A stretch of DNA of 54,191 bases, taken from an uncultured Sulfitobacter sp. (GTDB lineage: Bacteria > Pseudomonadota > Alphaproteobacteria > Rhodobacterales > Rhodobacteraceae). The DNA is taken from assembly GCA_938003685.1 (NCBI GenBank), contig CALKXT010000181.1, forward strand, positions 1 to 54,191. The letters are read 5' to 3'. Below the pieces are notes generated by a model. It made no database searches. It saw only the letters and a list, made by a program, of their open reading frames with translations, and was not told the DNA's origin. The translations under genes and the position numbers were made by a program. This document shows, in pieces, positions 11,607-41,470 of this stretch (position 1 is the stretch's first letter; each line of letters starts with the position of its first letter).

Positions 11607-12506
11607 CTACTCAATCTGAGGCGCAATAACATAGCTTAGGGATGCGATCACATCCCAAGTATGCTGAGCAGGTACATTCGCCATATCCACGGCGGCATGC
11701 ATTTCAGCCAATGAAATATTGAGTTGGTGATTTTTCAATTGTCTTAGGTTTTCAGCTTTATGATGCTCAATCAAGCCCGCCCGCTCAAGTCGGCTGAGTG
11801 AATTTTCAAAAGACAAATCGTGAGCAGGATACATCGCCTCTAACGCGTTGATGTGTTCATCCAGTTCCACAGCAGCACTCTGTCCTGATATGCCCCATTT
11901 TCCCTCAATGAATTTACCTCTTGAAAATTCATCAAATAGAATTCCAATCTCTCGGACCACGTCAATCGGGTGGTCCGCGACGTGTACAAAATTCAACAGG
12001 ACATTCGGAGGGTTCAGCGTAGATCGTAAACTGTCGGTTTGACCCGGGTAACGCGGCCCCCCTTTTAGAGCATTAAGGCGCTCAGAAGCGGGTTGGAAAT
12101 ATGTATCATTTTGCTCAAATAGGATCACAACAGTTTTTGAAACTGTGTACCACAGTGTCGAAAAACTAAGGCGTTCGATAGGAAACGTCTGCCAATCAAA
12201 TCGCCATATTTCACGCATAGAATGACGGTTGAGTTCAACAATCGCAGAGCTTTTCACCTCAAACCCATGCTCCTTGCAAAAAGACAAAATCTGTTGTCCA
12301 CGCCTTCCTACAATTGCATCAGGTTTGAACATCATCAGCGCAGTATTTTTGTACCAGTGCTGAGTCTGATCGCCCAATCTGTTCTCTATCTCTTTGCTGC
12401 ATTCATAGATGTACAAATCATTGCAGTACGGATCATTGTGGCCATCGGCCATTTGAACAGAGCCTGAAAATGCACCCAAAGTGGCCATCGTTTCATTAAC
12501 TTGCAT
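11607..12506 (-). CDS. NDK-like domain protein 1
   Basis: A 299-residue protein with a nucleoside-diphosphate-kinase-like domain at about residues 55-195, flanked by an extra N-terminus and a helical C-terminal domain of about 100 residues. NDK landmarks are present: the ATP-site KPDA at 61-64 and a catalytic-His equivalent H175 in VHVADHP (canonical IHGSDS). The glycine and serine after the His are replaced by V and A. Inference: a nucleotide-binding or phosphotransfer enzyme recruited to the pathway rather than a housekeeping NDK, which is about 140 residues. The ATG at 12506 has GGGAG 6 bases upstream and is preferred to an in-frame TTG at 12518. It is the last gene of the operon that starts at 18536. 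A second member of the family is encoded at 19609-20598. Confidence 0.78.
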   Translation of the reverse strand: MQVNETMATLGAFSGSVQMADGHNDPYCNDLYIYECSKEIENRLGDQTQHWYKNTALMMFKPDAIVGRRGQQILSFCKEHGFEVKSSAIVELNRHSMREIWRFDWQTFPIERLSFSTLWYTVSKTVVILFEQNDTYFQPASERLNALKGGPRYPGQTDSLRSTLNPPNVLLNFVHVADHPIDVVREIGILFDEFSRGKFIEGKWGISGQSAAVELDEHINALEAMYPAHDLSFENSLSRLERAGLIEHHKAENLRQLKNHQLNISLAEMHAAVDMANVPAQHTWDVIASLSYVIAPQIE

Positions 12507-12527
12507 CTTAACTCCCAAGCTTTCCTA

Positions 12528-13619
12528 TCAAGATTGAAGTAACTGTCGGAACATCTCAACACGGGGCTGCGCTAATGGTATGCTCATTCGGAAACATGTG
12601 GAAATCTGATCGCTATCATCACCCCTCCAATAGAAATGTTTTTTGCCCTTGATCCCCCTTTCGTAGAAATAATCGAACACATCCTGACAGACCTCTTTTG
12701 GCCATACGAGGTAGGGAAGTGATGACTCCAAGCCGATGCTTGGCGGGATGTCTAATTCCTTGAGCAAGGTAGAAAGATCGGCTTTGACGTCAGCAATCCT
12801 TTCACGCAACGCGCGCGTCAGGTCAGGGCAATTCAAGACCTCCTTCCCAATGCGATAAGACAACGAGGATACTGACATCGGCACAAGAGCTTTGCGCAAC
12901 ATCCGTGTGGCATAAGGTGATGCTACCGCATAGCCCAGCCGAACGCCCCCCAGCCAATACCCTTTCGATATGCCGCGTAAGACGATTAGGTTCCGACGGC
13001 CTTTGATCAATCGCGCCATGCTCTCTGAGGGCGCGAGGTAATTGCCATATGCTTCGTCGATGATCACCAAAGCACCAACAGCGTCAGCAGCGTCCAGCAA
13101 GGCGTTTAGATGTGAAGTGCTTAAAAGGTCGCCCATCAAATTGGGTCTTTCAAGATGGACAAATGCTGGCTTGATCAGCGCGATATTTTCCAAATCACTT
13201 TCACCCAGATCAGAACTGTGACGGGATCGGCATTCCACCCCATTTTGAGCAAGCCAATGTGGCAAATCCGGATAAACATCACCAATCATGTAGCCACCGC
13301 CACGCTTTGGAATACGTGACAGGGCGTACAGTAAAGTATTGATGCCAGCACCTGCCGTAAGTTGAAAATCCGATGGTGAAAGTCCCAAATGACGCGCTGC
13401 CGCAGGTTTAAGGGCCGCTTCTCCAAAAGGGTCATCCAAGAAGTACGATTGCACGTATGGGAGGCCTTCGTTGAGTTCTTTGCTCAATTCTTCTTTTACG
13501 ATCTTGGTAACGTCCTGTGTGAGAAATTGCTGTTCATCGCTGGTCCACGCAAGGTTCAATCCTGAAAAAGTGTCACTAGAAATGGCAATATCTTCATAGC
13601 TGCTAACGGCTAACACCAT
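12528..13619 (-). CDS. PLP-dependent aminotransferase, fold type I (HisC-like)
   Basis: A 363-residue class I/II aminotransferase of histidinol-phosphate-aminotransferase size. The PLP-binding lysine is K219 in GISKGYWLGGVRLGY, and the Asp that holds the pyridine nitrogen is D188 in IIDEAYGNY. The usual NPNNPTG loop is changed to RPNLMGD, which keeps the Asn. The substrate is unknown; because HisC relatives act on phosphorylated or polar amino acids, it may supply an amino acid for the cluster. The frame is open upstream, but the ATG at 13619 sits one base after the stop of the phosphodiesterase gene and gives the normal family length. It is 21 bp upstream of the NDK-like gene. Confidence 0.85.
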   Translation of the reverse strand: MVLAVSSYEDIAISSDTFSGLNLAWTSDEQQFLTQDVTKIVKEELSKELNEGLPYVQSYFLDDPFGEAALKPAAARHLGLSPSDFQLTAGAGINTLLYALSRIPKRGGGYMIGDVYPDLPHWLAQNGVECRSRHSSDLGESDLENIALIKPAFVHLERPNLMGDLLSTSHLNALLDAADAVGALVIIDEAYGNYLAPSESMARLIKGRRNLIVLRGISKGYWLGGVRLGYAVASPYATRMLRKALVPMSVSSLSYRIGKEVLNCPDLTRALRERIADVKADLSTLLKELDIPPSIGLESSLPYLVWPKEVCQDVFDYFYERGIKGKKHFYWRGDDSDQISTCFRMSIPLAQPRVEMFRQLLQS

Positions 13620-13620
13620 G

Positions 13621-14685
13621 TTACGCCCCTTCCAACCACAGATCAGTTGGCTGCCAAGTTGCAAGCATCGCATCACGTTCTGATGCGGTCCATGATCCGT
13701 GTTCATATCCATAGGCCTTGTCGCATAGAAAATCTGTGCGTTGCGCGACAAGAACAACTTCACCGACCCGTTCATACGCCAATGACCCCGTGCGAAAGTA
13801 TGCATCTCTTTCGCTGACAGTGGCGTCCGCCCCAAAAATGTTTTGTAGTTCTCTCATCACGGCAACAGTCAGGGTGTTGTCACCGTTCGTATAGAACCAC
13901 CTCACACGTCCTGCCCCGCCCATTTCGACGCCGTGGTATTTAATCAAGGCATCAACCTGCGCACCATAGTTCGACATGTCGTAGGTTTCGACCAATCCAT
14001 GATCGGAATGTGCGATAACGCAGTTGCCTGTTTGAACCCAATGTCGCGCTAGTCCGTCCAGCCCGACAAGAACTTCATCCACATGATCATCATAACCGTT
14101 CTGATGGATGTGACGGTCAATATCGATAAAACACCAGAGCAGTTTGCCAGTGGTTGCACCATCCAAAGTGTCGTTGATTGCACCCTCAACCTTTTGAACA
14201 ATACCTGCGCCATTGTCCCGATCTGCATGCGTATAAAACCTGTGACCCTGCACCAAGGACGCATCGTTCAACAGCATGTTGCGCCAAGGCCCAGGAAAAT
14301 CCTCCCAATCGCCAAGCACTGCATGGGCGTCGTAGCCAAGATCGATTGCATCAGTAAAAATGGTCGGTAGCTGTGGCACCTCTAACGCACCTTGGTATTC
14401 AAAAACATTTACCATTTCATTTGGGTTTAGACGAAATACTACGCCGGGGATGCCATGCTCATCAACCGATGCCCCGGTCAGTGCACTTAACCATGCGGTT
14501 GAGGACGTTGACGGAAACACCGACGTCACACGTTCAAGCGCGACTCCTTGCCAAGCGGATTGCGCATGCTTGTAATCAATTCCGTCAACGGCAAGTACAA
14601 TGATGTTGCGACGCTGACCTGATCTGCATTCCTGACCCATCAAATCAGCAAGGTATTTTCTAAAATCTCGGATGCTGTCCAACAT
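13621..14685 (-). CDS. Alkaline-phosphatase-fold phosphodiesterase / nucleotide pyrophosphatase-like protein
   Basis: A 354-residue protein of the alkaline phosphatase superfamily, closest in appearance to type I phosphodiesterase/nucleotide pyrophosphatases. Metal ligands are recognisable: D34 in VLAVDGID, the nucleophile region PSTSSTAW followed by LTGASVDEHGIPG, the DIDRHIHQ cluster at 188-195 and SDHG at 227-230. No signal peptide is seen, so it is probably cytoplasmic. It might hydrolyse a nucleotidylated or phosphorylated intermediate, or act as a phosphomutase-type enzyme; the reaction cannot be read from sequence. The start codon overlaps the stop of the preceding FAD gene (TAATG), so translation is coupled. 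Confidence 0.8.
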   Translation of the reverse strand: MLDSIRDFRKYLADLMGQECRSGQRRNIIVLAVDGIDYKHAQSAWQGVALERVTSVFPSTSSTAWLSALTGASVDEHGIPGVVFRLNPNEMVNVFEYQGALEVPQLPTIFTDAIDLGYDAHAVLGDWEDFPGPWRNMLLNDASLVQGHRFYTHADRDNGAGIVQKVEGAINDTLDGATTGKLLWCFIDIDRHIHQNGYDDHVDEVLVGLDGLARHWVQTGNCVIAHSDHGLVETYDMSNYGAQVDALIKYHGVEMGGAGRVRWFYTNGDNTLTVAVMRELQNIFGADATVSERDAYFRTGSLAYERVGEVVLVAQRTDFLCDKAYGYEHGSWTASERDAMLATWQPTDLWLEGA

Positions 14686-16880
14686 TAGACCCCCGAACAT
14701 TCGTGTACACGCTCAGCAGGGTGGCGACCCTTGACCGTATCCACAATTTCGTTTGCCCATACAGCGATGTCATTCAATATGCCGTTGTTCGAATAAGGTT
14801 TTGCCGCAGAATATTGAAAAGCAATCAAGCCTTCTGCGGGCGCGCCTATGACCGTTAGACGGTTTTCGACTCTCCCATCTGATGTAAAGGGATGAAACTG
14901 TTTGTTCAAATCAAGGGCCCCGGGTTCAAAATTGCTTTGCTCATCGACGCCCGGGTTCTTCCAGCGCCGCACCATCCCTCGCGCAAACAAATTCCGATAT
15001 AAGTCGGGCCCATCCCGTTCAGGATCAAATGCAGGCACCCGCGCGTCAATAACCGATGAAACATATTGCTTAATCGTACCTTCATAGCTCACGATACAAA
15101 ACCGATCATGTGCCGTATCAACGTCGATCACGGGACAAGGGCCCATCGACAGATCCAATATCCCGGCCTCTGCAAGAGCCACGAGTTTGCGGGTCGCCGT
15201 TAAACTGGTACCATTCGACATGCGGGTATAAAGCCGATGGTGGTTAACTATGTAATCCGCATGGGATTGCGCCTGAAGACCGCCGTAATCAAGGATCGCG
15301 GCATAGACCGCTCTGAGGTCACGCCAAACCCCATCCGTCGCAGCCTTTAGCGGGTTGCGCATGTTACCCTGTGCCGAAAATAGATTGTCGCGCCTTATAT
15401 GTGCGACTGTCTTTTCGTGCCAATCAGAACCGGGTACTGCGTTATCTGCACGTACCGGGTAAAATACGTCTTTCCAATTAAAGCGATGCTGACGAATGTC
15501 TATTGGATGCTGCCAGGGTGATGTTTTCTGTTTCGGATCATCACCCCAAACGCAGATTTGAAACCGAGCAATGGCTTGATGATAAATTTCAGAAAAGGGA
15601 TCATCCTTGCGGGCCTGTTGGTCTGTACTCAGATTAACAAGGGCCTCAGCCATAAAGTCAAAAGCCTCGTTGACCGGGTGCATTAGAGCATCGATAGCCT
15701 CTTCTTCGCTTAGCTTGCTGGATGAAATATGAGCATCATAGGTAGGTGTTACGACATCCACGAGGTACGCTGCGAACTTTGGCCCCAACAAAGTCTTGTA
15801 ATAGACATACGCCATTTCCAACACGACCAGCGGGAATATATCGCGGCTATAATTCAACTGTTTCACAACCATATCGGATACAAGACAAGGCACGCCCACA
15901 GAGGTGCGCAGTTGTTCAACAGCACCTCGCGTCAAAAACTGCCCCTTATGCTCCTTATGCGCATGGTCAACACCTGATCCTGTGGCTGCTTTGTCATTCT
16001 CGCCCCGACTTTGGACAGGCAAACCACTGCGGCTCAGCCCAAAAATTACCTTGGGTTCCTGCCCAGACGGCACATATTTCAGGGTGTCATCCGGTGCTTT
16101 GTCAAACCGCCCTCCCCTGCCTTCGGTCAGGCTGATGATACTATCCACACCCGCTAACCCAAGACCCAAAACAGCAACGCCTGAACCGGGCGCGATAACG
16201 TCAGAACCCAGTTTTTCTTTCGTTGGATAAATGTAGGGGACAAATTGCGCCGATTTCATCGCAGCGTTCGCGTGCATTAGGCTTTCAGCCTTTGATCCCT
16301 TCGCCGCTCTAACGGGCGCATGTCCAGTGACAAGCAAAACGTGATCCGTATGATACGGTCCTCGTCTTGTGAGCAATCGAAATCTGCCCCCGGGCGTTTC
16401 GGCAATATCAATAACATCCTCAGGAATTTTTTTCATAGTTACGTTTGGCACAGCCTCAAGCAACGCTTGATACCTTACAAATGCAGCATTCAATGCTTCA
16501 CCGTGAATGGCCCGTGTCGGCATTTGCATCGGCTCTAACAGATACTTCGGATCACCTGTTTTTTTAAACTCAACTCCACTCCACTCATACAAGGTCGGTC
16601 GATCCCTCTGCCCCAATAGTGTTGTCGCAGGTTGGTTCGTTTGATCAGCAGCAAATGCAATTTGGCTTGAGACCCGATTCATCTGGCCAGTCACACATTG
16701 GTCGGCACTTTGGGTCGCGCCCGCCCCAAATTCACCAGACCTCTCAAAAACCAAAATCTCTATCTGATCTGCGCATGCCATCTCTGGCAACATGGCCGCT
16801 AGCCGTTCCAAAGCATATGTACCGCGTGGGCCACAGCCTACGATCGCTATCGAAAATGGCTGAATCTTTTGTTGCTTCAT
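14685..16880 (-). CDS. FAD/NAD(P)-binding protein (NAD_binding_9-like), 731 aa
   Basis: A 731-residue protein with an N-terminal Rossmann fold (IAIVGCGPRGTYALERLA, residues 12-29) and a second nucleotide-binding-like stretch (GVAVLGLGLAGVDSI). The spacing and the phrase GQMNRVSSQIAFAAD resemble the FAD-NAD(P)-binding family PF13454, whose members are mostly uncharacterised and appear in secondary-metabolite and iron-uptake loci. The likely role is a flavin-dependent oxidation or N-hydroxylation of an amine or peptide intermediate in the cytoplasm. ATGA overlap with the amidase upstream and TAATG overlap with the phosphodiesterase downstream place it firmly in one operon. The assignment to the fold is good; the reaction is unknown. 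Confidence 0.78.
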   Translation of the reverse strand: MKQQKIQPFSIAIVGCGPRGTYALERLAAMLPEMACADQIEILVFERSGEFGAGATQSADQCVTGQMNRVSSQIAFAADQTNQPATTLLGQRDRPTLYEWSGVEFKKTGDPKYLLEPMQMPTRAIHGEALNAAFVRYQALLEAVPNVTMKKIPEDVIDIAETPGGRFRLLTRRGPYHTDHVLLVTGHAPVRAAKGSKAESLMHANAAMKSAQFVPYIYPTKEKLGSDVIAPGSGVAVLGLGLAGVDSIISLTEGRGGRFDKAPDDTLKYVPSGQEPKVIFGLSRSGLPVQSRGENDKAATGSGVDHAHKEHKGQFLTRGAVEQLRTSVGVPCLVSDMVVKQLNYSRDIFPLVVLEMAYVYYKTLLGPKFAAYLVDVVTPTYDAHISSSKLSEEEAIDALMHPVNEAFDFMAEALVNLSTDQQARKDDPFSEIYHQAIARFQICVWGDDPKQKTSPWQHPIDIRQHRFNWKDVFYPVRADNAVPGSDWHEKTVAHIRRDNLFSAQGNMRNPLKAATDGVWRDLRAVYAAILDYGGLQAQSHADYIVNHHRLYTRMSNGTSLTATRKLVALAEAGILDLSMGPCPVIDVDTAHDRFCIVSYEGTIKQYVSSVIDARVPAFDPERDGPDLYRNLFARGMVRRWKNPGVDEQSNFEPGALDLNKQFHPFTSDGRVENRLTVIGAPAEGLIAFQYSAAKPYSNNGILNDIAVWANEIVDTVKGRHPAERVHECSGV

Positions 16881-18301
16881 GCCGCATCATCTAACGATGG
16901 ACGCACATGCGTTACGCCTGCGCTTGCCTCGAATGCGCTGGCGACCTGAAACATCGTAACCTCATCAAACAATTTACAAACAACCTGCATGCCAAAAGGA
17001 AGGCCGTTTTTGGAAAACCCAATTGGGATTGTCAGTGCAGGGTTGCCCGTTACGCTGAAGGGAGGAGCGTTGATTGCTGTCGCGATCCCCGGGGGGGGCC
17101 AGTCGACTGGAAAATCCGAAATCAGCGACGCAGGCGCTACATTGGTGGCAGTGATAAGCGCGTCAAACCCTTTTCCAAAGACCTGTGCGTTAAACGAAAC
17201 CGTCAACTCACGCCGCAACCTTTGGGCTTGAATATAATCAGCCGCTGACAACCCTGCCGCAGCTGCAACGCGTTGATACGTATAGCGGCCAAAATCCTGG
17301 GGGCGGGATTTTAGATCTGCTTCGTGAATTGCATAAGCTTCGGCCAACATGATGACCCGTTGGCATGCTTTAAACTGATCAAAGTCGGGCAATTGTATGC
17401 GCTCCACAATCGCGCCAAGCGATGTGTACCGCTGCGCCGCAGCCTCCATCGTATCGACCATTTCCTGTGATCTTGATGGCACATCAGTGTACAGGTTGCT
17501 TGCCAATGCGATGCGCATCCCCTCAACCGACTTGCCAATCTTTTGCGCATAATCGGTTTTAGGCAAGGGCACACTGCTGGGGTCTTTTTTATCGAAACCG
17601 GCAATGACGTTCATGGTTAAAGCCGCGTCTTCAACATTCCACGATACAGGACCGCAATGATCAAGTGAATAAGAAAGCGGAAAAACCCCGCGGCGCGAGA
17701 CCAACCCATAAGTTGGTTTCAAACCGACCACACCACAATGGCTAGCGGGAGATCGTATCGACCCACCTGTGTCCGACCCAAGTGCCACACGCACCATACC
17801 CGCACCAACAGCCACGCCCGAGCCGGAGGACGACCCACCCGTGAAATGATCGACATTCCAAGGATTGCGCGCTGTCTCAAAAGGCAGGGTCTCATCTGGC
17901 CCGCCTAAGGCAAACTCATGTGTGTTCAACTTTCCAACAAGGACACCGCCACCCGTGTTGAGCAAGTCTACAGCGTGGGCGTCCTCTTGGGGAATATGAT
18001 CAAGCATCATCCTTGAGTTACAGGTCGTTGCTATGCCCGCAGTATTATAGATGTCCTTCAGGCCAAAAGGAATGCCTTGCAATGGGCCCCTATCAACACC
18101 GTTTTCAAAAGCTTCATCCGCTTGCGCCGCTGTACGTAAGGCGTGTTCACCCGTCACCAATATGAACGCGTTTACTTTTGGATTTAGTTTTTCGATGCGC
18201 GCCAGCGTGAACTCGGTCAATGCCACAGAAGTCAGCGCACCACTGCGCAGCTTAGACCCCAATTCCGAAACAGAAAGCAAATGGAGTTGATCAGTCATCA
18301 T
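16877..18301 (-). CDS. Amidase (GatA/AtzE-like amidase signature family)
   Basis: A 474-residue amidase with a complete Ser-cisSer-Lys triad: K82 in GLKDIYNTAG, the cis-Ser within GGSSSGSG at 155-162 and the nucleophile S181 in GSDTGGSIRSP. Length and motif spacing are normal for the family. It is preceded by a small AtzG-like protein whose stop overlaps this start, an arrangement known for AtzE-type amidases that need a small stabilising partner. Open frame upstream of 18301 is taken up by that gene, so the ATG at 18301 (or 18298) is chosen. It probably hydrolyses an amide or ureide in the pathway, or transfers an amino group. It is not gatA of the tRNA amidotransferase, as no gatB is near. 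Confidence 0.88.
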   Translation of the reverse strand: MMTDQLHLLSVSELGSKLRSGALTSVALTEFTLARIEKLNPKVNAFILVTGEHALRTAAQADEAFENGVDRGPLQGIPFGLKDIYNTAGIATTCNSRMMLDHIPQEDAHAVDLLNTGGGVLVGKLNTHEFALGGPDETLPFETARNPWNVDHFTGGSSSGSGVAVGAGMVRVALGSDTGGSIRSPASHCGVVGLKPTYGLVSRRGVFPLSYSLDHCGPVSWNVEDAALTMNVIAGFDKKDPSSVPLPKTDYAQKIGKSVEGMRIALASNLYTDVPSRSQEMVDTMEAAAQRYTSLGAIVERIQLPDFDQFKACQRVIMLAEAYAIHEADLKSRPQDFGRYTYQRVAAAAGLSAADYIQAQRLRRELTVSFNAQVFGKGFDALITATNVAPASLISDFPVDWPPPGIATAINAPPFSVTGNPALTIPIGFSKNGLPFGMQVVCKLFDEVTMFQVASAFEASAGVTHVRPSLDDAA

Positions 18302-18536
18302 GTCGCAAGAATGCCTCTGGAACAAAGAAACTGGCTGGTTCGTTTTCAGCAGGCCTTGGGTGGCGCAAGTGCCCAAGCTGTTTATTGATTTCCGTAAAAC
18401 CGTGCAAAGTACCTGCCTTCAGGTCTTCAGGCACAGCCAATCCCGCACGCGCACAGGCGGATTCAAAAGTCGACTTATCATCGTCCAACAGGTGGCTCCC
18501 ATCCCAGTTTTTCGTTGGTAACGTCGCCCATGACAT
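18291..18536 (-). CDS. AtzG-like small amidase partner protein
   Basis: An 81-residue protein whose second half (GFTEINKQLGHLRHPRPAENEPASFFVPE) has the helix plus the proline-rich EPAxxFxP tail typical of AtzG/GatC-like partners of amidases. In known systems this subunit binds AtzE as a heterocomplex and stabilises it. It is the first gene of the minus-strand operon 18536 to 11607, and its last codons overlap the amidase start. The upstream ribosome binding site is weak (GGTTGG). Functional pairing with the amidase is inferred from the gene order and the tail motif. Confidence 0.7.
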   Translation of the reverse strand: MSWATLPTKNWDGSHLLDDDKSTFESACARAGLAVPEDLKAGTLHGFTEINKQLGHLRHPRPAENEPASFFVPEAFLRHDD

Positions 18537-18579
18537 CCAACCCGCAGATACACGTTAAGCTTGCAGTGACCTATTAACT

Positions 18580-18689: not shown

Positions 18690-19544
18690 ATGGCCAAGAG
18701 TGTATTTCAAAATTCAACCATTGATACCCCTTCCAACCCAGGCGTGCGCGAGATAACCCAAACTGAAGTGGATCATTTTCGCAAAAATGGGTGGGTCATT
18801 TTAAGACAGTTCATGGCACCCTCGTCGGTGGCACAAATCAAAGAACGCGCAACGCAAAGAATGGGCACAGACCCGCAAACAGTCACCCGGCTTTCACCTG
18901 ATGAACGGATTGAGAACGAATACAATTGGTATGCGCGTTGGGATGGCCCATCGCACGCGGATGATTGGATCAAATCCTTTAGCCACTCCAACAGTGCAGG
19001 CAGCATGGCGGCGGCGGCGACCGAGCTATCGGGCAGTACCATTCGGTTCTATTTCGATCACATTTTCACCAAACGCCCGGCATCCAAAAGCGGCGGACCA
19101 ACACCTTGGCATCAGGATCTGCCGCACCATCCTCTTGATCGTCAAGGCGGACTGACCATGTGGACACCTCTTGTCGATTGCCCTGCAGAAATGGGAACAA
19201 TGCGGTTTTTGAACGGATCTCATAAAGCTGGCATTTTTGGGCGCTTCCTAAATCGGAGTGATGGCGTCAGCTTGGTAGATGAATACCCGGATGTTATAAA
19301 AGACTTTGAAGTGTCCGACCCTCTCGACATGAAAGTCGGTGACACGACGGTCCACAATTTGGCGGTTATTCATCATGCGCCTGAAAACCTGACTGACAAA
19401 CCACGCTGGGTTTATGCTTGCCAATGGCTACCTGTCAAAGCGCGTTTTACTGGTGCCCCTAATCACCGTACTGATGGATTAAACATGCCGATTGACCAGC
19501 CGCTGGATCACCCGATGTTCCCGGTGATTGAAGTTCGAAAATAA
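18690..19544 (+). CDS. Phytanoyl-CoA dioxygenase (PhyH) family Fe(II)/2-oxoglutarate oxygenase
   Basis: A 284-residue PhyH-type oxygenase. The iron triad is visible: H141 and D143 in TPWHQDLPHH and the distal His in AVIHHAPENL (H228), followed by R239 (DKPRW) for 2-oxoglutarate. Such enzymes hydroxylate, desaturate or halogenate small substrates; because the first-sphere Asp is present, it is a hydroxylase-type enzyme rather than a halogenase. An AAAGGAA-type ribosome binding site precedes the ATG. It is divergent from the amidase operon with a shared regulatory region, and is followed 64 bp later by the second NDK-like gene. Confidence 0.87.
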   Translation: MAKSVFQNSTIDTPSNPGVREITQTEVDHFRKNGWVILRQFMAPSSVAQIKERATQRMGTDPQTVTRLSPDERIENEYNWYARWDGPSHADDWIKSFSHSNSAGSMAAAATELSGSTIRFYFDHIFTKRPASKSGGPTPWHQDLPHHPLDRQGGLTMWTPLVDCPAEMGTMRFLNGSHKAGIFGRFLNRSDGVSLVDEYPDVIKDFEVSDPLDMKVGDTTVHNLAVIHHAPENLTDKPRWVYACQWLPVKARFTGAPNHRTDGLNMPIDQPLDHPMFPVIEVRK

Positions 19545-19608
19545 GGTACTGGACGTGCGATTTATTCTGCGCTCATGACATCTCGATTTTGTGGAAAGCA
19601 AACCTCGC

Positions 19609-34070: not shown

Positions 34071-35046
34071 AATCCTTGCCGTTCGGCGCGATTTACTAAG
34101 CCGATTGAACGCACTCTTTGAACGTGGCGACGGACATTGGACGATGACGTTTGACGAATTCCTCATCAAACAAAAGCTATTGTTTCTAATGGACAAAGAA
34201 CGCCGCCCCCAGACTATAGTCCGCCACAAAGCAGAAGCAGCTTGGCAACATATATCAGCCTTTCAAGGCATCGCCCCCCACGGTTTCTTTTTTGTTAAAG
34301 GTGCGTTCACCGGGCCAAGGTTTTATTTGAAGCCCATCGAAAGAATGGTCAATAATATCGACATTCTGGCGAACCCAAGTCGCGTGAAACCGCTGTACTA
34401 TTCACTGTTGGAAAGTGGGTGCACCCTGAATGATCCAGAGCTATCGCGCGCCTTTGATACCAATGGAGCAACTGCCCTGAATTCGACCCTAAATCGGGCA
34501 CTTATGACTCTACATGAGTTTCCGTCGTTGTTGTTCAAAGAGACCGAAATCGACGTTAATTTCAGAATTTTGTTACGGGGAACTGCCCCATTCGAGAAGC
34601 GATTTGACACAGCACCTATTGAGAAACAGTTTTGGACTGTCGCAGAACAGATCATAGATGATCAAAGCCAATATTTCCCAGCTGAGATCAACGCGATCCA
34701 GATGATATTGCACTATTTTTCTGAATTCACACTCAACGAATTAGAGCCAGAAGGCATTTTGTGCATTCGCCTGCACAAACTTGTTGATCTGTTCTTTTTC
34801 TCGCAGTCAAAAGACATCGACTGGACATTTTTTTGGAAGTGCGTCGAACAAATTGGGTGCCAAAAAATTGTAGCTGACTTCCTTGTGCTGTTCGAATTCG
34901 TCTTTGGCTCGGACACTCATTTTTCAAATCGCCTGCAGCGTTCAGATCAGATTCACATCATGCACGGCAGTGCTTTTGTACCTGTCGCATCCGATACCTT
35001 TTTCCAACTGCTTCAGATGAATGTTCGTGATGCATTTGCAAAATAA
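34057..35046 (+). CDS. Nucleotidyltransferase-like protein (PF14907-type)
   Basis: A 329-residue protein. The segment FFVKGAFTGPRFYLKP followed by ERMVNNIDILANPSR matches the pattern of the uncharacterised nucleotidyltransferase family PF14907 (LKG...RxxxDIDLLV), and the C-terminal KLVDLFFFSQSKDIDWTFF fits the family's helical domain. Only one of the two expected catalytic aspartates is clear (NNIDIL), so activity may be lost. Members turn up in peptide natural product clusters. The start is a GTG at 34057 inside the carrier gene, with GGAG upstream; the frame's earlier ATGs lie within the carrier gene and are not needed. Confidence 0.62.
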   Translation: MDKVEILAVRRDLLSRLNALFERGDGHWTMTFDEFLIKQKLLFLMDKERRPQTIVRHKAEAAWQHISAFQGIAPHGFFFVKGAFTGPRFYLKPIERMVNNIDILANPSRVKPLYYSLLESGCTLNDPELSRAFDTNGATALNSTLNRALMTLHEFPSLLFKETEIDVNFRILLRGTAPFEKRFDTAPIEKQFWTVAEQIIDDQSQYFPAEINAIQMILHYFSEFTLNELEPEGILCIRLHKLVDLFFFSQSKDIDWTFFWKCVEQIGCQKIVADFLVLFEFVFGSDTHFSNRLQRSDQIHIMHGSAFVPVASDTFFQLLQMNVRDAFAK

Positions 35047-35114
35047 TTTCCCGCATTGTGTACAACTAATGTTTAGCTCAATGCCCCCCTCAAGCGACAC
35101 AACGGATACACAGA

Positions 35115-36347
35115 GTGGAAGCTAATAAATCGCAGCGGTTCGGCGCGCTCAGAGAACAAAGTTATCGGTTATTTCTAGCCGGGTATGGGTTTTCCTACAC
35201 GCTGTATTGGGTCACCCTTCTCGCAATTGGCTGGTGGGTTTGGGAAACTACTCAATCCGCGACCTGGGTCGGTTTCATCTATTTTTGTGATCTTTTCCCT
35301 GCTGTCTTAGTGACCCCTTGGGCTTCTGCAATCGCAGATCGAAGTGACCGCTTCAAACTTCTTAAGACTGTTCTGTGGATACAGGTTTTCTCTGGACTTG
35401 CCTTGGCCGCAGTCGCCGCTTTGGGCAACCTTACGCCACAGATTCTTGCTGCGTTTGTTTTCCTAGAAGGGGCGCTTATCGGCTTTAGCCAACCTGCCTT
35501 TTTTGGCATGATCAACCGACTTGTCAGCAAACCAAACTTGTCAGCAGCCGTGGCCTTAAACACCAGCGTTTCGCAAGCCAGCTATACTTTGGGGCCGCTC
35601 ATTGCTGCGTTTTTCTTTTCATTTGGGTTATGGATCGCGCCGCTTGCCTTTGCTGCCAACGCAATCGGCACCCTCGTATACTTGGTCTGCCTCACCAAAA
35701 TCGAACTCCAACCTGTGCCAGTGTCAAACAAAAAAGCAAGCGCTGACCTCAAGGGCGACATTATTGAAGGTATTAGCGCTCTTTGGGCAAGTAAACTTGC
35801 CTTAAGGGCTACTGTATTGATCTTGGCTGTCGCAATTCTTCAACGTCCCCTGATCAGTTTGATGCCCGGCATAAATAGCTATTTTGATTTGTTCAGCGCC
35901 TCCAACTATACCTTTCTTACGGCGAGTTTTATGGTTGGTAGCATTGTTGCGGGCTTAGTCTTAGCAAACCGTAACAATGAACAGGGGCTAGAGGGCATCA
36001 CCTTAAAGGTCATCTTTGCCCTGATGGGTCTCTACGCTGCGTTCTTCTTGTTGATGAACGTGCTGAGTGGCTACTGGTTTGTTGCCGTTGGCATGTTGTT
36101 CGCAATTGGTTTTACCAGCGCGTTTGTTTGGAGCGGCAACAATATTATCTTACAAAACAAAATACCCGAGCACCTAAGAAGCCGCGTGTTGGGCAACAAC
36201 TTTATGCTAACCCGCGCCATCGGTGCCATCGCCGTCATTCTCAGTGGATTTCTTGTTGATCTCTACAACTTCCCAACAGCGATGATGTCCCTTGTTGGGA
36301 TTGTGCTGGTGGCCTTGTTTATCTTTCGCTCACTCAAGACCACCTAA
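35115..36347 (+). CDS. MFS exporter
   Basis: A 410-residue integral membrane protein with about 12 hydrophobic segments and the major facilitator loop motif after TM2 (ASAIADRSDRFKLLK). It resembles the EntS-type drug/siderophore exporters in length and pattern. As the last gene of the ACAD/adenylation/condensation/carrier operon it probably exports the product or gives self-protection. The start is a GTG at 35115. Its last 18 bp overlap the 3' end of the convergent condensation gene. Confidence 0.85.
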   Translation: MEANKSQRFGALREQSYRLFLAGYGFSYTLYWVTLLAIGWWVWETTQSATWVGFIYFCDLFPAVLVTPWASAIADRSDRFKLLKTVLWIQVFSGLALAAVAALGNLTPQILAAFVFLEGALIGFSQPAFFGMINRLVSKPNLSAAVALNTSVSQASYTLGPLIAAFFFSFGLWIAPLAFAANAIGTLVYLVCLTKIELQPVPVSNKKASADLKGDIIEGISALWASKLALRATVLILAVAILQRPLISLMPGINSYFDLFSASNYTFLTASFMVGSIVAGLVLANRNNEQGLEGITLKVIFALMGLYAAFFLLMNVLSGYWFVAVGMLFAIGFTSAFVWSGNNIILQNKIPEHLRSRVLGNNFMLTRAIGAIAVILSGFLVDLYNFPTAMMSLVGIVLVALFIFRSLKTT

Positions 36348-37799
36348 GCAATGTGACACAGCAATCTCATCCACAGTTCCAACAAAACGCTCTGCCATCT
36401 GTCGCGCACTGTCAGCGTGGTAGAAGCGCTTGTTATACCTCATATTCAATTCCCAATTACCTGCAGGGCCGACGCCGATATTGAAGTACAGCTTGAAAGG
36501 AAAAATCGTGTGATCATACATCGCACCGGATGATATGTCGTTTTCCAGCAGCATAGGGTGATCTGAGGGTATGTTCAAAAGCTCCTCAAGCGGCGCAATG
36601 AAATTCAGCTCTAAACTGGGCAAATCACGGCGGGAGAAGTTTTGCACAGCTTCGCCATCAGGGCCGTATAGCATTGCACGAAGACCCATGCCTCGGTTGG
36701 GAATATCGCTAATCTGTTGGGTCAAATCACGCGCCATATCCGCCGCCGATAAATGCGTATCTTGGTTAAACTCCAACAACCACGACCCAAACTCAATACA
36801 GCAATAGTTGGTCTTGAAATGCAGGTACCCATCCCCGAAAAAGCCGCGTCCGTTCAACAACATATCCACCCAAAGCATGGGCACATCGAGATAGGTTTTG
36901 ACACTCTCATGCAGCGCCTTCATCAAAATTGACTCGCTGCTCAAAGACTTTGATTTAACCAGGTCACGCAACACAGATGTCGCTTGACTTGAAAAGGGTC
37001 GCACGATGAAGCCTGTTTCTGCCTCAAGTGCGTTCATCTCTTCCTTGGTAACGTCTTTGGATGAGCTAAACTGTTTCAACAGCAGGTTTTGCATGTTCTC
37101 AATATCGAACGCTTCATGACCCTCATTCAAATCAGTCCGCAGCATGACCGCCCTAGACCGCGTAACAATATCGTTCCAGAATGGCACCTCGGTACGTGAT
37201 CCAGTCCTGCAATACTCATTTAAGGAGTTGGCATAGTCCGTCACCACATCGACAGAATTGAGCTTGGATCGACCAACATCGGTTGAAGCACGTGCAATGC
37301 GATCAAAAAAGACGCGCGACATGTTCAAGGCACCGTAGGCATCACATACATAATGCGAGCCAATGACCGTCAAATAGATATCCTCGCCGTCCCCAAAGTT
37401 AACGTAAAGAATTCTAAACAACGACGACTTTCCGTCCAATCGAAATGCTTTGCCGGTCTCCTCCGTAAGGCTCACCATCTTTGCCTCGCGCTCCACCTTA
37501 TCTAGACGCGCAAAGTTATGACACTCGATGATGTCATCGGCACTAAACATGTCAAAGTTTTGCCAAAGCACGTCATCCTGAAGAGGGCCAACCGACGATA
37601 ATAGATGAGAATTTTCTAACTGTATTAGATCGTGCCAAATATCTTTAACCGACTCAAATTGCTGATCAATTTTGAAGGTAAAATACACCGAATAAAAGTC
37701 TCTATACCCCACATGATAGCAAAAATTCTGATAGGGACCTAGCCGAATACCGGGTATTTTTTTTACCGTTCCAGACTGTGTATCAGGTGACCTTCTCAT
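36330..37799 (-). CDS. Condensation-fold acyltransferase 2 (NRPS C-domain-like)
   Basis: A 489-residue protein of the condensation superfamily. The motif is SHYVCDAYG (H149 and D153), the same S-for-first-His and A-for-Gly variant seen in condensation protein 1. It is about 95 residues longer than condensation protein 1 and nearer the full two-lobe C-domain length (about 450). It is the final gene of the minus-strand operon that starts with carrier protein 2 at 41470, and so likely uses Thr-like acyl groups loaded there. Its end overlaps the MFS gene by 18 bp tail to tail. Confidence 0.78.
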   Translation of the reverse strand: MRRSPDTQSGTVKKIPGIRLGPYQNFCYHVGYRDFYSVYFTFKIDQQFESVKDIWHDLIQLENSHLLSSVGPLQDDVLWQNFDMFSADDIIECHNFARLDKVEREAKMVSLTEETGKAFRLDGKSSLFRILYVNFGDGEDIYLTVIGSHYVCDAYGALNMSRVFFDRIARASTDVGRSKLNSVDVVTDYANSLNEYCRTGSRTEVPFWNDIVTRSRAVMLRTDLNEGHEAFDIENMQNLLLKQFSSSKDVTKEEMNALEAETGFIVRPFSSQATSVLRDLVKSKSLSSESILMKALHESVKTYLDVPMLWVDMLLNGRGFFGDGYLHFKTNYCCIEFGSWLLEFNQDTHLSAADMARDLTQQISDIPNRGMGLRAMLYGPDGEAVQNFSRRDLPSLELNFIAPLEELLNIPSDHPMLLENDISSGAMYDHTIFPFKLYFNIGVGPAGNWELNMRYNKRFYHADSARQMAERFVGTVDEIAVSHCLGGLE

Positions 37800-37803
37800 A
37801 CAC

Positions 37804-38745
37804 TTAAACGCCCTTGTTAGGTTTCAAGTTCACCAAATAAAGCGAAAGACACAGGAACGGTAACGCGACCCAAAAGGCGACTGGTAGGCGTTCATCAAAG
37901 AGGACAACGCCACTCACAACCCCCGTGAATGCAACGATGTATGTGGGCAGACTGCTGACCACAGGGCCGTAATTTCGGATCGTATAGACGTATGCCGCCA
38001 TGCCGATGCACATCGCGACGCCCATCCACATCGTATAAGTTATTGCCTTTGGATTACTCACGAAAACTGTCCATGGATCATTCAAGATAAAGGCGGTGAT
38101 CCCGGCAGTTAATGCCACGAAAAAAAATGTCGTACATGATGTGTAAAACGGGGCCGTGGTGACGGTCGGTAGCTTTGAGAAAACGATATTCCTGAATGCA
38201 TACCCAAGCGCAGAAACAAGCATCAACAGTATCCAAACGATGTCGTTATTGCGGTTAGCGAATTTGGAACTCCCCCAAATTATCGCGGACACGGATGCCA
38301 AACCCAGCAAGATCCCAACAACCCGTATCGTCGATGACCTGTCTGTCTTAGCGATCAGTGAAAGGCATAGTGTGAAAATTGGAACCAATGCAAAAATGAT
38401 CGATATCACTCCGACAGAGACAAAATCGACCCCGAAGAAAGCGATCATATTAGGAATTCCCAAACCAAATATGCCAGTCAATATTGACCCGATCAACAGC
38501 GACCGTGAAAACGCAATTTTCTCTTTCCAAATCGCACCGAGTACGGCCAGACCGACAAACACAACAGAGGCTTGAACAAACGCAATCTGAGCACCCGTAA
38601 CACCTTCGTTCACTGCTAGTTTTGCGATCCCCGTATTGAGGCCCCAAAAAACGCCAGACACCATTATCAAACAATAGGGTAGTAATAACCGCAATACGGC
38701 CCCTGCCCTACTTTGATTTGCCAAATCTTCATCGATATTTGTCAA
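37804..38745 (-). CDS. EamA/DMT-family transporter
   Basis: A 313-residue membrane protein with about ten hydrophobic helices and the duplicated EamA pattern, such as VSGVFWGLNTGIAKLAVNEG in the first half and YIVAFTGVVSGVVLFDERLP in the second. The family exports amino acids and small metabolites. Because it lies within the second NRPS-like operon, 4 bp before condensation gene 2, it is probably a second product or intermediate exporter. The substrate is unknown. Confidence 0.85.
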   Translation of the reverse strand: MTNIDEDLANQSRAGAVLRLLLPYCLIMVSGVFWGLNTGIAKLAVNEGVTGAQIAFVQASVVFVGLAVLGAIWKEKIAFSRSLLIGSILTGIFGLGIPNMIAFFGVDFVSVGVISIIFALVPIFTLCLSLIAKTDRSSTIRVVGILLGLASVSAIIWGSSKFANRNNDIVWILLMLVSALGYAFRNIVFSKLPTVTTAPFYTSCTTFFFVALTAGITAFILNDPWTVFVSNPKAITYTMWMGVAMCIGMAAYVYTIRNYGPVVSSLPTYIVAFTGVVSGVVLFDERLPVAFWVALPFLCLSLYLVNLKPNKGV

Positions 38746-38770
38746 AATGGCATTCCATCATCAACTTCAG

Positions 38771-40303
38771 TTACCCTTCACTGGCCAGGCGGAGAATTTC
38801 GATGTCATCAACCTTGCCGTTTTGGTTGATCGGAAATTTCCTGAACTGAACAGCCGCGCAATGAGCGGGCCAGATGTAATCGGGCAAAACATTTTTTAGC
38901 CCACTGGAAAACTCATCTTGGCTTTTATCTGTGATCAGCGCCAATAGGATGCCCACGGGTGATTTCACCAAAATCGCACGTGCATCTTGAACATGCTCCA
39001 TAGACAGCGCCAATTGCTCAATCTCAGTCAGATCAATACGGAACCCTGCGACTTTGACTTGTCGGTTCAAACGTCCCAAGTATTCAAATTCACCGTTGTC
39101 TAATTGCCGCCCTTTGTCGGCACTAAAATAGGTCCACGAGGCCTCTGGCCCGAGGGCGTTAAAACCGTGGTTTTCGATGGTCAGACAGTACCGCGCAACC
39201 CCCCTCCCCGACAGAGTAATTTCACCTGCCGTTCCTGTGGGGACTTCTTTATGGTCTTGATCTACAATCTTAATATTAGTCCCTAACAAGGCTTTTCCAA
39301 TATTATTCACAGCCAAATTGGAAAGTGGCGTCACTAATTCTTTGCAGGTTGCGTGGACCGTCACCTCAGTAATGCCATACATATTGAACACCCGCAGCGG
39401 CAAATCCTGATGTACTTCTAGGAACTCGCCCACGACTTCATTATTCACGACCTCCCCACCCAGGATGATGTAACGCAGTGAGGCCAGGTTTTCAGGCCCG
39501 AGTAGGCGCGTCGCAATGTGGATCTGATTGAAATAGGATGGTGTCTGACATAGGATTGTGATCTGTTGTTTTTTGATCAGCCTGACAATTTCCCAAGGTG
39601 TTTTTCGCGTCTGCTCATCGGGTATCACCAGGGTTCCACCATACAGCAATGCACCCCAGATTTCCCAAATTGAAAAGTCAAAAGCGGGCGAATGAAAAAA
39701 CAGCCAAGTATCATCAGGCGAATAGGTTTGCACATCACCTACAGATCTAAACCGATCAATCAGATTTCGGTTTGAGATCGATACCATTTTTGGAACACCC
39801 GTCGATCCAGATGTTCGGATCATATAGCATTCTTCATCCTTTAGGTCTGTTTCGTGATGACAGAGTGCTGGTTCTGTATATGAACCATGATCTCCCATCA
39901 TTACAATCCGCGACGAAACCAAATCGCAAATTTGCATCATCTCATTAGCGTCGGTATCGCCAAGAGTGAGACAAGCGCTGACCGAACTTGTCGAAATTAT
40001 ACCTTCAACTTCTTTTGGCGGCACACCAGCATAAATAGGGAAAAAGCTGCATCCAAGGTATTGAACAGCCAGCATCGAGACAATCAATTCTAAGCCCGCA
40101 GGCATTTGTAAGGCGACCCTGTCACCCCGACGTATTGAGAGTGACCTACGCAGGCCAAGTGCGAGCCTCTGGGCTTGTTCCCGCAGCTCTGCATAGGTGG
40201 TTGTGCTGCCGTCCTTTGACACGATCGCCAAGTTACCCTTGTGGGCGTTAGCTATTGCATCAAAGTGACCTACAACCGATGTGGTTTCGTCAAAGAACAC
40301 CAA
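38771..40303 (-). CDS. Stand-alone adenylation protein 2 (predicted Thr-like substrate)
   Basis: A 510-residue adenylation protein with A3 IRTSGSTGVPKMV, A4 AFDFSIWEIWG, A5 FNMYGITEVTVHAT, A7/A8 YFSADKGRQ and LGRLNRQVKVAGFRIDLTEI, and the A10 lysine in NQNGKVDD. The specificity positions read D-F-W-C-I-G-M-V-H-K. The classic threonine code is DFWNIGMVHK, so only N278 has become Cys. Threonine or a close analogue (allo-Thr, a 2-aminobutyrate type) is predicted. It probably loads carrier protein 2 (41210-41470). Its start overlaps the AurF-like gene by 14 bp. Confidence 0.88.
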   Translation of the reverse strand: MVFFDETTSVVGHFDAIANAHKGNLAIVSKDGSTTTYAELREQAQRLALGLRRSLSIRRGDRVALQMPAGLELIVSMLAVQYLGCSFFPIYAGVPPKEVEGIISTSSVSACLTLGDTDANEMMQICDLVSSRIVMMGDHGSYTEPALCHHETDLKDEECYMIRTSGSTGVPKMVSISNRNLIDRFRSVGDVQTYSPDDTWLFFHSPAFDFSIWEIWGALLYGGTLVIPDEQTRKTPWEIVRLIKKQQITILCQTPSYFNQIHIATRLLGPENLASLRYIILGGEVVNNEVVGEFLEVHQDLPLRVFNMYGITEVTVHATCKELVTPLSNLAVNNIGKALLGTNIKIVDQDHKEVPTGTAGEITLSGRGVARYCLTIENHGFNALGPEASWTYFSADKGRQLDNGEFEYLGRLNRQVKVAGFRIDLTEIEQLALSMEHVQDARAILVKSPVGILLALITDKSQDEFSSGLKNVLPDYIWPAHCAAVQFRKFPINQNGKVDDIEILRLASEG

Positions 40304-41213
40304 TCGTTTCTCCGGTGTTCAGCGATTCTTCCATCAAGATGTCCCGCTTTAGGAAAAACGCCACCTGCTTGCTCACAATCTTCTGGTGGAAACCATGCCG
40401 TTGTGGCGACTTCATCAACTTTGAACGAAATTCGTAAGGGTCCGGAATTCCGGCGTCAGTGTAGGCATGTAGTGGATAAAACAACCGCAACATCCCGTTA
40501 ATATACGCTTTAATATAATTCGAAATGTTTAGCCGCATCTCCTTTTCGTCACCATGCGAAGAGAAGTTAATGCAGTGGTACAACACACCCACGATATCAC
40601 GTCCAAATGCGATGTGACGGGATTCATCAACAAAATGAGTGCGGTTGATGTCACGGACAATTTTGGGGAGGCATGGGTCAGTAGACATGACCTTGTTGAA
40701 GTATACAACAATCTCTTCAAAAATCATCAGGCGGGCAAACACCAGAAAATCGTTCACATCATCTGGAAAGCTGCTTGGCAGCACTATTTTCTTGGGCTGA
40801 TACAGCACGCCATAACGCTTGCAGAACTGCGCAAAAAACCAAAGATGCGCATTCTCTTCCTCGACGAGGTGATGCATGTACTCCGTGAAAATTTCGTACT
40901 TCGGGGTATGCATGCGGTCAATCACATCAATGATCAGTTCGCGTTCACCGTGCGTGTTCAAGCTAGAGTAATTATACTGTTCATAGTGACTAAGTTTTAC
41001 CATTTGTTCATGGGTCAACTCATCTACAAATGACGTTTCCGCAACACTCAACAGCTGCGGCGACATCAAAAATGACTTCTCGTCGACAGTCTCTGGCCAA
41101 TCGAACAATTCGTAGTGGTCGTAAGATTTCTCTCTCGACAGATTACAGAGGCGATCCATGCGGATGATGCTGTCTTTGGGGTCTTTCCCCCTTTGCTGCG
41201 TCTCAGCACTCAT
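40290..41213 (-). CDS. AurF-like diiron N-oxygenase
   Basis: A 307-residue four-helix-bundle protein of the AurF (p-aminobenzoate N-oxygenase) family. The diiron ligands are visible as EEENAH, FEEIVVYF and FVDESRHIAFGRD. The family oxidises amines to hydroxylamine, nitroso or nitro groups, and some members take carrier-bound substrates. With the Thr-like adenylation protein on one side and the carrier gene on the other, an N-oxidised (or otherwise oxygenated) carrier-bound amino acid is a reasonable guess. It overlaps the carrier gene by ATGA. Confidence 0.86.
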   Translation of the reverse strand: MSAETQQRGKDPKDSIIRMDRLCNLSREKSYDHYELFDWPETVDEKSFLMSPQLLSVAETSFVDELTHEQMVKLSHYEQYNYSSLNTHGERELIIDVIDRMHTPKYEIFTEYMHHLVEEENAHLWFFAQFCKRYGVLYQPKKIVLPSSFPDDVNDFLVFARLMIFEEIVVYFNKVMSTDPCLPKIVRDINRTHFVDESRHIAFGRDIVGVLYHCINFSSHGDEKEMRLNISNYIKAYINGMLRLFYPLHAYTDAGIPDPYEFRSKLMKSPQRHGFHQKIVSKQVAFFLKRDILMEESLNTGETIGVL

Positions 41214-41470
41214 AACGCAACCTCTTTGGTATCGGCATCTTGCAGATAGTTTGCTGAGATCAGGTTGATTGTGCGCAGTTTATCCATCGTGGATCGATCG
41301 AGGTCTACTGCTTGACCAGAGAGATGTTCAAGGAACAAGATGAATTCCATCAACTGAAGTGACGTCAAAATACCGCTATCAATTAGATCAAGGTTCTCAT
41401 CTGAGCCAGATTTAAACTCAGTGTTTTCCGTCAACCAATTCTCAAGTTTACTGATCTTTTGCATCTGCAT
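41210..41470 (-). CDS. Stand-alone carrier protein 2 (ACP/PCP-like)
   Basis: An 86-residue carrier-like protein with the attachment serine S37 in LIDSGILTSLQLMEFIL, a D-S-G-x-x-x-S-L context. It starts the minus-strand operon carrier 2 / AurF-like / adenylation 2 / EamA / condensation 2. A GGGGAG ribosome binding site lies about 9 bases upstream of the start. It follows the parB gene on the same strand with 119 bp between and no obvious terminator, so some read-through from the partition operon is possible. Confidence 0.78.
   Translation of the reverse strand: MQMQKISKLENWLTENTEFKSGSDENLDLIDSGILTSLQLMEFILFLEHLSGQAVDLDRSTMDKLRTINLISANYLQDADTKEVAL

Follow-up and report, generated by a model that had tools for sequence, protein, structure and literature searches.

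Between about 11.6 and 41.5 kb, the 54,191-nucleotide stretch of uncultured Sulfitobacter sp. DNA analyzed here (hereafter the window; contig C181 of a 3.4-Mb source genome in 219 contigs, 84.6% complete) carries a gene island in which a small peptide and a PP-loop ATPase are surrounded by oxygenases, NDK-like proteins, an enolase and free parts of a nonribosomal peptide synthetase (NRPS). The locus raises the question of whether these genes form one system, and of what kind. The original prediction, made from the sequence letters, had divided the island into halves of 11.6-25.8 and 26.5-41.5 kb. We conclude with high confidence that the segment of about 11.6-29.7 kb is one widespread, apparently undescribed system of the ribosomally synthesized and post-translationally modified peptide (RiPP) type, with the PP-loop protein as its signature enzyme. 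The modules at 30-41.5 kb, which contain adenylation (A), condensation (C), carrier, acyl-CoA-dehydrogenase-like (ACAD) and AurF proteins, are the variable part and additions of this window.

A peptide and PP-loop core in distant bacteria

A scan of genome contigs with a four-sequence alignment of PP-loop proteins yielded 35 loci. In 14 of these (L008-L021) the PP-loop protein is 55-60% identical to that of the window; they belong to three Streptomyces, Saccharothrix, Actinokineospora, Myxococcus, another member of the Myxococcales, Pantoea, two alphaproteobacterial metagenome-assembled genomes (MAGs), a Lysobacteraceae MAG, two Burkholderia-type species and Candidatus Siliceabacter. Together with L003 they formed a comparison set of 15 loci, of which six (L008, L010, L011, L013, L016 and L017) were extended along the same contigs; the other nine end at contig ends or were unextended, and absences there are weak. 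The PP-loop gene was present in all 15 loci, the precursor peptide and the M28 metallopeptidase in 14 each, the flavin adenine dinucleotide (FAD) protein in 13, the phosphodiesterase in 12, the pyridoxal phosphate (PLP) enzyme in 11, the amidase in 10, NDK-like genes also in 10 (matches to either window gene, some loci holding one), the enolase in six and the small amidase partner in five. PhyH and A-domain matches were found in two loci each, and TauD, the nucleotidyltransferase NTP1, the ferritin-like protein, the TPR protein and ACAD in one each. The boundary between the predicted halves therefore proved unnatural. A failure of the halves ever to co-occur had been named beforehand as evidence against unity; they do co-occur elsewhere, since in most of the 15 loci three genes assigned to the second half (peptide, PP-loop and M28) recur with the FAD, phosphodiesterase, PLP, amidase and NDK-like genes of the first.

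Searching plasmids with the PP-loop protein returned four records, the best from Pantoea agglomerans (NZ_CP134735), where an FAD gene lies nearby too. The PP-loop gene was found in none of 144 relatives and the FAD gene in none of 117, and a class sample gave the PP-loop gene in two of 384 other genomes, those of L016 and L023. The cluster has apparently spread by horizontal transfer.

Around the constant genes the composition varies. A luciferase-like monooxygenase is encoded in nine of the 15 loci and was found neither in the window nor in the Actinokineospora stretches examined; since TauD is encoded in just these two places, the two oxygenases may replace each other. Nucleotidyltransferases of family PF14907 were confirmed by Pfam in L003, L013, L017 and L071, and the window copy (NTP5) gives no tblastn match in the 15 loci. 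Proteins of the PqqD type, whose fold is known to bind RiPP leaders, were found in three actinobacterial clusters (the L008 extension, L010 and L013 by similarity; L013 also with Pfam). The precursor, a nucleotidyltransferase and the PqqD-type gene of Actinokineospora (L013, 15285-16806) all run in one direction, so that the PqqD domain may bind the leader there. In the Pantoea clusters (L003, 19323-20893), a kinase-like and a PEP-utilizer-C protein are present and no NDK-like gene was found, the two proteins being a possible functional replacement. The core cluster is also kept in L018 and L020, two Burkholderia-type leaf symbionts with a leaf-nodule lifestyle, and it may have a role in symbiosis.

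The window peptide ends in EVICGASCETGAQ, and that of P. agglomerans NZ_CP134735 in ETICGASCETGAQ. In an alignment of 15 rows (the window, L003, L008-L019 and L021; L020 begins at a contig edge), majority-residue identity averages 93% over the last 11 columns, 86% over the last 22 and 50% over the rest, the leader. A hyperconserved core behind a diverged leader is what is expected of a RiPP precursor; the short encoded peptide adjoins a putative modifying enzyme, and its core and leader are under different constraint. The ribosomal scaffold that the original prediction had offered with a "perhaps" is borne out as regards the involvement of a ribosomal peptide. One core site alternates between Cys (10 rows) and Thr (five rows), and chemistry with the side chain as nucleophile, for example the formation of an azoline, may take place there.

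In a test with a single motif, 21 of 36 PP-loop genes had a small open reading frame (ORF) with the tail [ILVMC]C[GAST][AGPT]?S in the 700 bp before them, as compared with 63 of 6004 random windows; three contig-edge loci were skipped, and the control windows inside the window itself did not leave out the precursor. The 15 misses include Thr-core precursors, displaced precursors and loci with no obvious peptide (e.g. L037). Many more-distant PP-loop genes are preceded by other small ORFs, with tails such as ICGPSSNVISM or LCASALTAQV. A second, actinobacterial peptide subfamily with the tail LC[A/T]SALTAQ[V/M] was observed in L032 (9455-9613), L035 (9461-9619), L040 (9445-9678), L041 (8823-8963), L005 (11403-11612) and L036 (8413-8631); of the window genes, only the PP-loop gene matches in these loci, plus an ACAD-like gene in L041. 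A flavobacterial subfamily, with the tail CG[T/P]SS[N/D][I/V]ISM, was observed in L028 (9746-9910), L029 (9670-9834) and L030 (9799-9954).

Island genes were scanned with Pfam (26 of 27) and NCBIfam (20 of 27). Among these matches there was no YcaO, LanB/LanM, radical SAM, ATP-grasp or lasso B/C protein (a result for the island, the remaining genome lying outside this search), and no LanB-type peptide aminoacyl-tRNA ligase (PEARL). A canonical multimodular NRPS with thioesterase was likewise not found, the island holding only free A, C-like and carrier proteins. With no known RiPP class enzyme or multimodular NRPS matched in the island, the earlier statement that it fits no standard class stands.

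Core enzymes and the cluster-type enolase

The PP-loop protein is proposed as the class-defining enzyme. Its SGGxDS motif is invariant in 18 sequences, and profile searches place it with TtuA, NcsA and TilS, i.e. with tRNA-modifying PP-loop enzymes. An AlphaFold2 model built with 15 sequences (mean pLDDT 80) gave TtuA and NcsA as the nearest Foldseek matches, followed by TilS, and the modelled N-terminal domain looks beta-grasp-like.

The FAD protein matched the aspartate N-hydroxylase of PDB 8CP2 with E values of 1.1e-78 (profile) and 7.8e-45 (single sequence). According to PMC10404684, Asn62 of that enzyme is catalytic, and Asn413 and Arg416 belong to the Asp entry chamber. Nine sequences of the FAD protein all keep the equivalents of Asn62, Arg409 and Arg412, with Arg or Lys in the place of Arg577; none of the nine retains Asn413 or Arg416, and the Arg13 position lacks conservation. 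Homology and the equivalent of the catalytic Asn62 place the protein in the FzmM/CreE/PcxL family of flavin N-oxygenases. An aspartate N-hydroxylase proper, leading to nitrosuccinate and nitrite, was rejected because of the replaced entry-chamber residues, and the Pfam scan of 26 island genes gave no nitrosuccinate-lyase-type match. We read the FAD protein as a putative N-oxygenase with a substrate other than Asp.

The remaining core enzymes also keep invariant positions, which we read as active-site residues of their families: His191, Lys76, Asn184 and Glu202 (NDK2 numbering) in 11 NDK-like sequences, candidate Asp/His/Ser metal ligands in 10 phosphodiesterases, a Lys in eight PLP enzymes, candidate metal ligands in 12 M28 peptidases, and candidate Lys107, Ser182 and Ser206 in nine amidases. 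The NDK-like proteins score 16.9 and 22.7 bits, short of the NCBIfam NDK equivalog cut-off of 155 bits.

The island enolase lies well above the TIGR01060 cut-off of 300 bits, with its catalytic motifs intact. An enolase was found in each of ten genomes searched, the source genome showing only the island copy. In a tree of 39 rows, eight cluster-type enolases (from the window, L016, L017, L011, L010, S. regalis and two of Actinokineospora, one of these on another contig) form one clade with support of 100/99, separate from the remaining 31, among them 14 genus mates; branches are long in several of the other rows, and three matches (one partial, two paralogues of 40-41%) were omitted. Seven of the eight lie in or beside peptide/PP-loop clusters, and all six extended clusters have a cluster-type enolase in or beside them. 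Sixteen columns differ strongly between cluster-type and other enolases, three of them within eight residues of metal-ligand motifs. At window position 292 the Trp of all 31 others is lost in 8/8 cluster-type sequences, at position 315 the Val of all 31 others is Cys in 7/8, and at position 242 Pro is found in 8/8 as compared with 3/31. These features fit self-resistance to an enolase-directed product, and a biosynthetic role fits too. We tentatively regard enolase as the likely product target, at a little below an even chance.

A different account, to which we give an appreciable minority chance, makes the cluster enolase biosynthetic or a supplier of phosphoenolpyruvate (PEP), with the target of the product elsewhere. 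Both Pantoea clusters have no enolase and do have the PEP-utilizer-C protein, suggesting PEP as a substrate, and the intact catalytic motifs agree with this; the best profile match, however, is an ordinary full-length enolase, and the three strongly differing columns close to metal-ligand motifs also speak against it. PEP mutase (TIGR02320) was not found in the source genome and exceeded the cut-off in three of 14 genomes, which also argues against PEP supply and sets aside a phosphonate pathway as a general explanation. We keep self-resistance as the preferred role of the enolase.

Proposed pathway and competing explanations

The best explanation overall, which we favour without strong conviction, is a biosynthetic system that centres on a ribosomal peptide and was acquired by horizontal transfer. 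Its product is probably an N-oxygenated, phosphoryl-processed antimetabolite, a point on which our confidence is about even. Gene content, co-conservation, the conserved active-site positions, the hyperconserved core and the cluster-type enolase clade are observations on sequence; every reaction, the reaction order, the target and the product are our reading of them.

In the proposed pathway, the conserved leader (NF[DN]LK...) of the 67-aa precursor would serve for its recognition. With ATP, and by AMP/PPi chemistry comparable to that of TilS, TtuA and NcsA, the PP-loop protein would activate a group of the C-terminal core, the simplest candidate being the amide that precedes the Cys/Thr-Gly step. 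Oxidation of the peptide would fall to the FAD N-oxygenase together with the TauD and PhyH oxygenases, which may stand in for the luciferase-like monooxygenase that most relatives have. Phosphoryl or nucleotidyl groups would be added or taken off by the NDK-like proteins and the phosphodiesterase; the HisC/CobD-like PLP enzyme would complete the product together with the amidase, and the M28 peptidase would cut off the leader. The enolase would most likely shield the producer, implying a product that acts on enolase; the two trans-acting A/C/carrier sets with ACAD and AurF would probably supply added building blocks, and the MFS and EamA proteins would export the product. The boldest version of this pathway is a new natural-product class in which a PP-loop ATPase resembling tRNA thiolases activates the peptide backbone, N-oxygenation and phosphoryl transfer convert the tail of the peptide into a non-phosphonate mimic of the intermediate of the enolase reaction, and the cluster travels between phyla with its resistant enolase. 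We consider this version improbable as a whole; if true, it would amount to an enolase inhibitor made from a ribosomal peptide, here fused to trans-acting NRPS parts.

Among the six extended loci, ACAD, A, carrier and free C genes immediately adjoin the core only in Actinokineospora, in a stretch that comprises NTP5, A, a PLP decarboxylase, ACAD, carrier and free C, followed by NRPS genes. The ACAD proteins of the window and Actinokineospora share just 24-26% identity, and separate recruitment is therefore possible. The S. regalis cluster contains an AurF-family gene that is too distant to be found with the window AurF, and a search with the latter gave matches in five of 14 genomes including the source genome, the best other being 38% identical (L077). 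Among plasmids, C2 found seven distant rhizobial records and C1 no record. The original interpretation is upheld in part, and a single product made by the modules and the core is a proposal.

There is an appreciable minority chance that the island consists of two or three independent neighbours, namely the peptide/PP-loop core (11.6-29.7 kb) and NRPS-like modules at 30-35 and 36.3-41.5 kb. C1, CP1, C2, EamA, AurF and CP2, all without matches in the 15 loci, would be explained in this way, as would an A/ACAD/carrier set that in L061 lies away from that genome's cluster contig; the module directly beside the Actinokineospora core and the AurF-family gene within the S. regalis cluster speak against it. 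Rather unlikely is a third account, in which the peptide acts, like TglA in 3-thiaglutamate synthesis, as an expendable carrier, and an amino-acid-sized antimetabolite is built on its C-terminus and then cut off. Pearlins provide a precedent (PMC9303977, PMC9016710), and the hyperconserved tail and the recurrence of the M28 and amidase genes are consistent with it; yet the conserved stretch ASKxGLExI[C/T]GASC begins well ahead of the C-terminus, and the scanned island genes gave no PEARL/LanB-type match. That the PP-loop/peptide pair serves RNA modification or defence is very improbable: solved PP-loop relatives are mostly tRNA-modifying enzymes, but the neighbours here are an N-oxygenase, a PLP enzyme and an amidase, two distant PP-loop/peptide pairs are likewise flanked by MFS genes, and a defence system was rejected because PADLOC matched none of the ten island proteins submitted to it.

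Several points weigh against the favoured biosynthetic system built around a ribosomal peptide. The evidence for a peptide pathway is comparative, and modification of the peptide is itself a proposal. An Fe-S thiolase mechanism for the PP-loop protein is doubtful because only two Cys are invariant across 18 sequences. Gene order and strand differ among loci; NTP5, C1, CP1, MFS, C2, EamA, AurF and CP2 were found by tblastn, at the threshold used, in none of the 15; and the window-AurF matches in four other genomes all lie on contigs other than the cluster contigs. An Asn-synthase-type gene in two actinobacterial relatives (L008 and L012; Pfam for L008) is reminiscent of lasso-peptide clusters. 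As for the enolase, it was not found in the two Pantoea loci nor in seven short-contig loci, the two leaf-symbiont genomes searched have only an enolase outside the cluster clade, and in the 84.6% complete source genome no second enolase was seen, so that the island copy could be the sole enolase of the bin.

Gene inventory, setting and known systems

The features of the island are collected in Table 1. Pfam and ORF scans recovered most of the gene list of the original prediction, namely the NDK-like pair, the amidase with its small partner, the PLP aminotransferase, the FAD protein, the phosphodiesterase, the PhyH and TauD oxygenases, the enolase, the PP-loop gene with its preceding peptide, M28, two A domains, AurF and the MFS and EamA exporters. 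The ferritin-like protein, ACAD, C1, C2 and CP2 were recognized by weak or sub-threshold matches or by motifs alone, and NTP1 falls below the cut-off; NTP5 and the TPR protein had been missed. The dense gene overlaps were confirmed, ORFs overlapping by 4 to 26 bp at many junctions.

Table 1. Features of the island, with positions in the window.
Feature	Positions	Strand	Basis and remarks
NDK-like phosphotransferase 1	11607..12518	-	PF00334 just under gathering score
HisC/CobD-like PLP enzyme	12528..13619	-	Aminotran_1_2; ORF opens at 13835, start ~13619 by homologues
Alkaline-phosphatase-superfamily phosphodiesterase/phosphohydrolase	13621..14700	-	PF01663
FAD-dependent N-oxygenase, FzmM/CreE/PcxL type	14685..16880	-	NAD_binding_9; PDB 8CP2 match
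Amidase-signature enzyme, GatA/AtzE-like	16877..18301	-	PF01425; ORF opens at 18376, start ~18301 by homologues
Small amidase partner, 81-aa ORF overlapping amidase	18291..18536	-	tblastn homologues by amidase in 5/15 loci
PhyH-type iron/2-oxoglutarate (Fe/2OG) oxygenase	18690..19544	+	PF05721; homologues 58% in L013, 62% in L069
NDK-like phosphotransferase 2	19591..20598	+	PF00334 above gathering score
TauD-type Fe/2OG oxygenase	20602..21639	-	PF02668; of 15 loci only in L013
Cluster-type enolase, full-length	21840..23129	+	TIGR01060, 624.5 bits
MNT-like nucleotidyltransferase (NTP1)	23172..24365	-	Sub-threshold PF01909/PF22600; 30% homologue in Myxococcus L011
Ferritin-like protein	24401..25099	-	No Pfam match; weak NCBIfam R2lox match (E 0.005); 47% homologue in L011
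TPR protein	25112..25828	-	Pfam TPR; 42% homologue adjoining ferritin-like gene in L011
Precursor peptide, 67 aa	26525..26728	+	C-terminal core ...SVPASKHGLEVICGASCETGAQ; homologues in 14/15 related loci
PP-loop ATPase, N-terminal domain possibly beta-grasp-like	26797..28008	+	Sub-cut-off ATP_bind_3/TilS/TtcA matches
M28/DUF4910-type metallopeptidase	28073..29728	-	Pfam; 14/15 loci
Module 1, whole	30031..34070	+	Comparable genes beside core in Actinokineospora
Module 1 ACAD	30031-31191	+	Only NCBIfam FadE16 match (7e-6)
Module 1 free A domain	31166-32638	+	Pfam
Module 1 C-like protein (C1)	32635-33819	+	No profile match; S-H-x3-D-A motif
Module 1 carrier (CP1)	33816-34070	+	Single Pfam-recognized carrier of island
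PF14907 nucleotidyltransferase (NTP5)	about 34057..35046	+	Pfam; ORF opens at 33970
Major facilitator superfamily (MFS) exporter	35115..36347	+	Pfam
Module 2, whole	36330..41470	-	C-like, EamA, A, AurF, carrier-like
Module 2 C-like protein (C2)	36330-37799	-	Sub-threshold Condensation match; S-H-x3-D-A motif
Module 2 EamA exporter	37804-38745	-	Pfam
Module 2 A domain	38771-40303	-	Pfam
Module 2 AurF-type oxygenase	40290-41213	-	Pfam
Module 2 carrier-like protein (CP2)	41210-41470	-	No Pfam match; S-L-Q-L site

In 2-kb steps, the GC content is 0.46-0.53 at 12-42 kb as compared with 0.52-0.55 at 1-10 and 46-54 kb. ParB-like and ParA genes and a replication-type gene at 41590-44752 resemble those of roseobacter plasmids; the nearest relative of the window ParA is a Sulfitobacter plasmid copy (85.6%), followed by other roseobacter plasmids, and no match was found in six same-genus genomes. 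From about 45.5 kb on, the sequence matches a chromosome of the same genus. A free-living plasmid contig was set aside on this ground, an integrated plasmid or a chimeric contig being likelier; integration of a plasmid may have brought the island here. On the other side, one open frame of 3259 codons (1-9777, minus strand) runs off the contig start; its repeated beta-sandwich-like sequence, PKD-like by eye, is read as a giant surface protein. Next to the island (9859-11576) lie a pseudopilin gene of type II secretion (T2SSG) and, beside it, a pilin-like gene, with a homologue found in only one of six same-genus genomes. The window has no tRNA and no Rfam family at gathering score. A viral origin was rejected, the ten proteins given having no PHROGs match and the PP-loop protein no close relative among viral contigs.

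In the open-licence literature (without preprints and with few subscription papers), no description was found of a RiPP with a PP-loop enzyme, of a cluster enolase or of an NDK/enolase RiPP. The peptide/PP-loop pairs, found from Flavobacteriaceae and Patescibacteria to Streptomyces, would be a family that searches with known RiPP enzymes miss. Moreover, the cluster often brings its own form of enolase, hinting at a possible target of the compound; enolase is essential in glycolysis, and a cluster-type copy in a peptide cluster without PEP mutase opens the question of further natural inhibitors.

Pantocin A, a RiPP-derived small antimetabolite of Pantoea, resembles the proposed product in being a small antimetabolite from a ribosomal peptide, and differs in its signature enzyme and precursor. 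The PP-loop protein is like TtuA, NcsA and TilS in its modelled fold and SGGxDS motif, but differs from them by a conserved small peptide partner, another N-terminal domain and its two invariant Cys. Similarly, the FAD protein is homologous over most of its length to PcxL and to the L-aspartate N-hydroxylases FzmM and CreE, but has Asn413 and Arg416 replaced and is set in a peptide cluster. SF2312, described in PMC12288639 and PMC13302981 as a natural phosphonate inhibitor of enolase, would share its target with the proposed product; it is a phosphonate, whereas the 84.6% complete source genome here gave no PEP mutase match. The pearlins (3-thiaglutamate, made on TglA; PMC9303977 and PMC9016710) share with the proposed pathway a small ribosomal peptide scaffold from which the product is freed by proteolysis; in the present clusters, with no PEARL-type match in the island, the constant partner of the peptide is instead the PP-loop enzyme.

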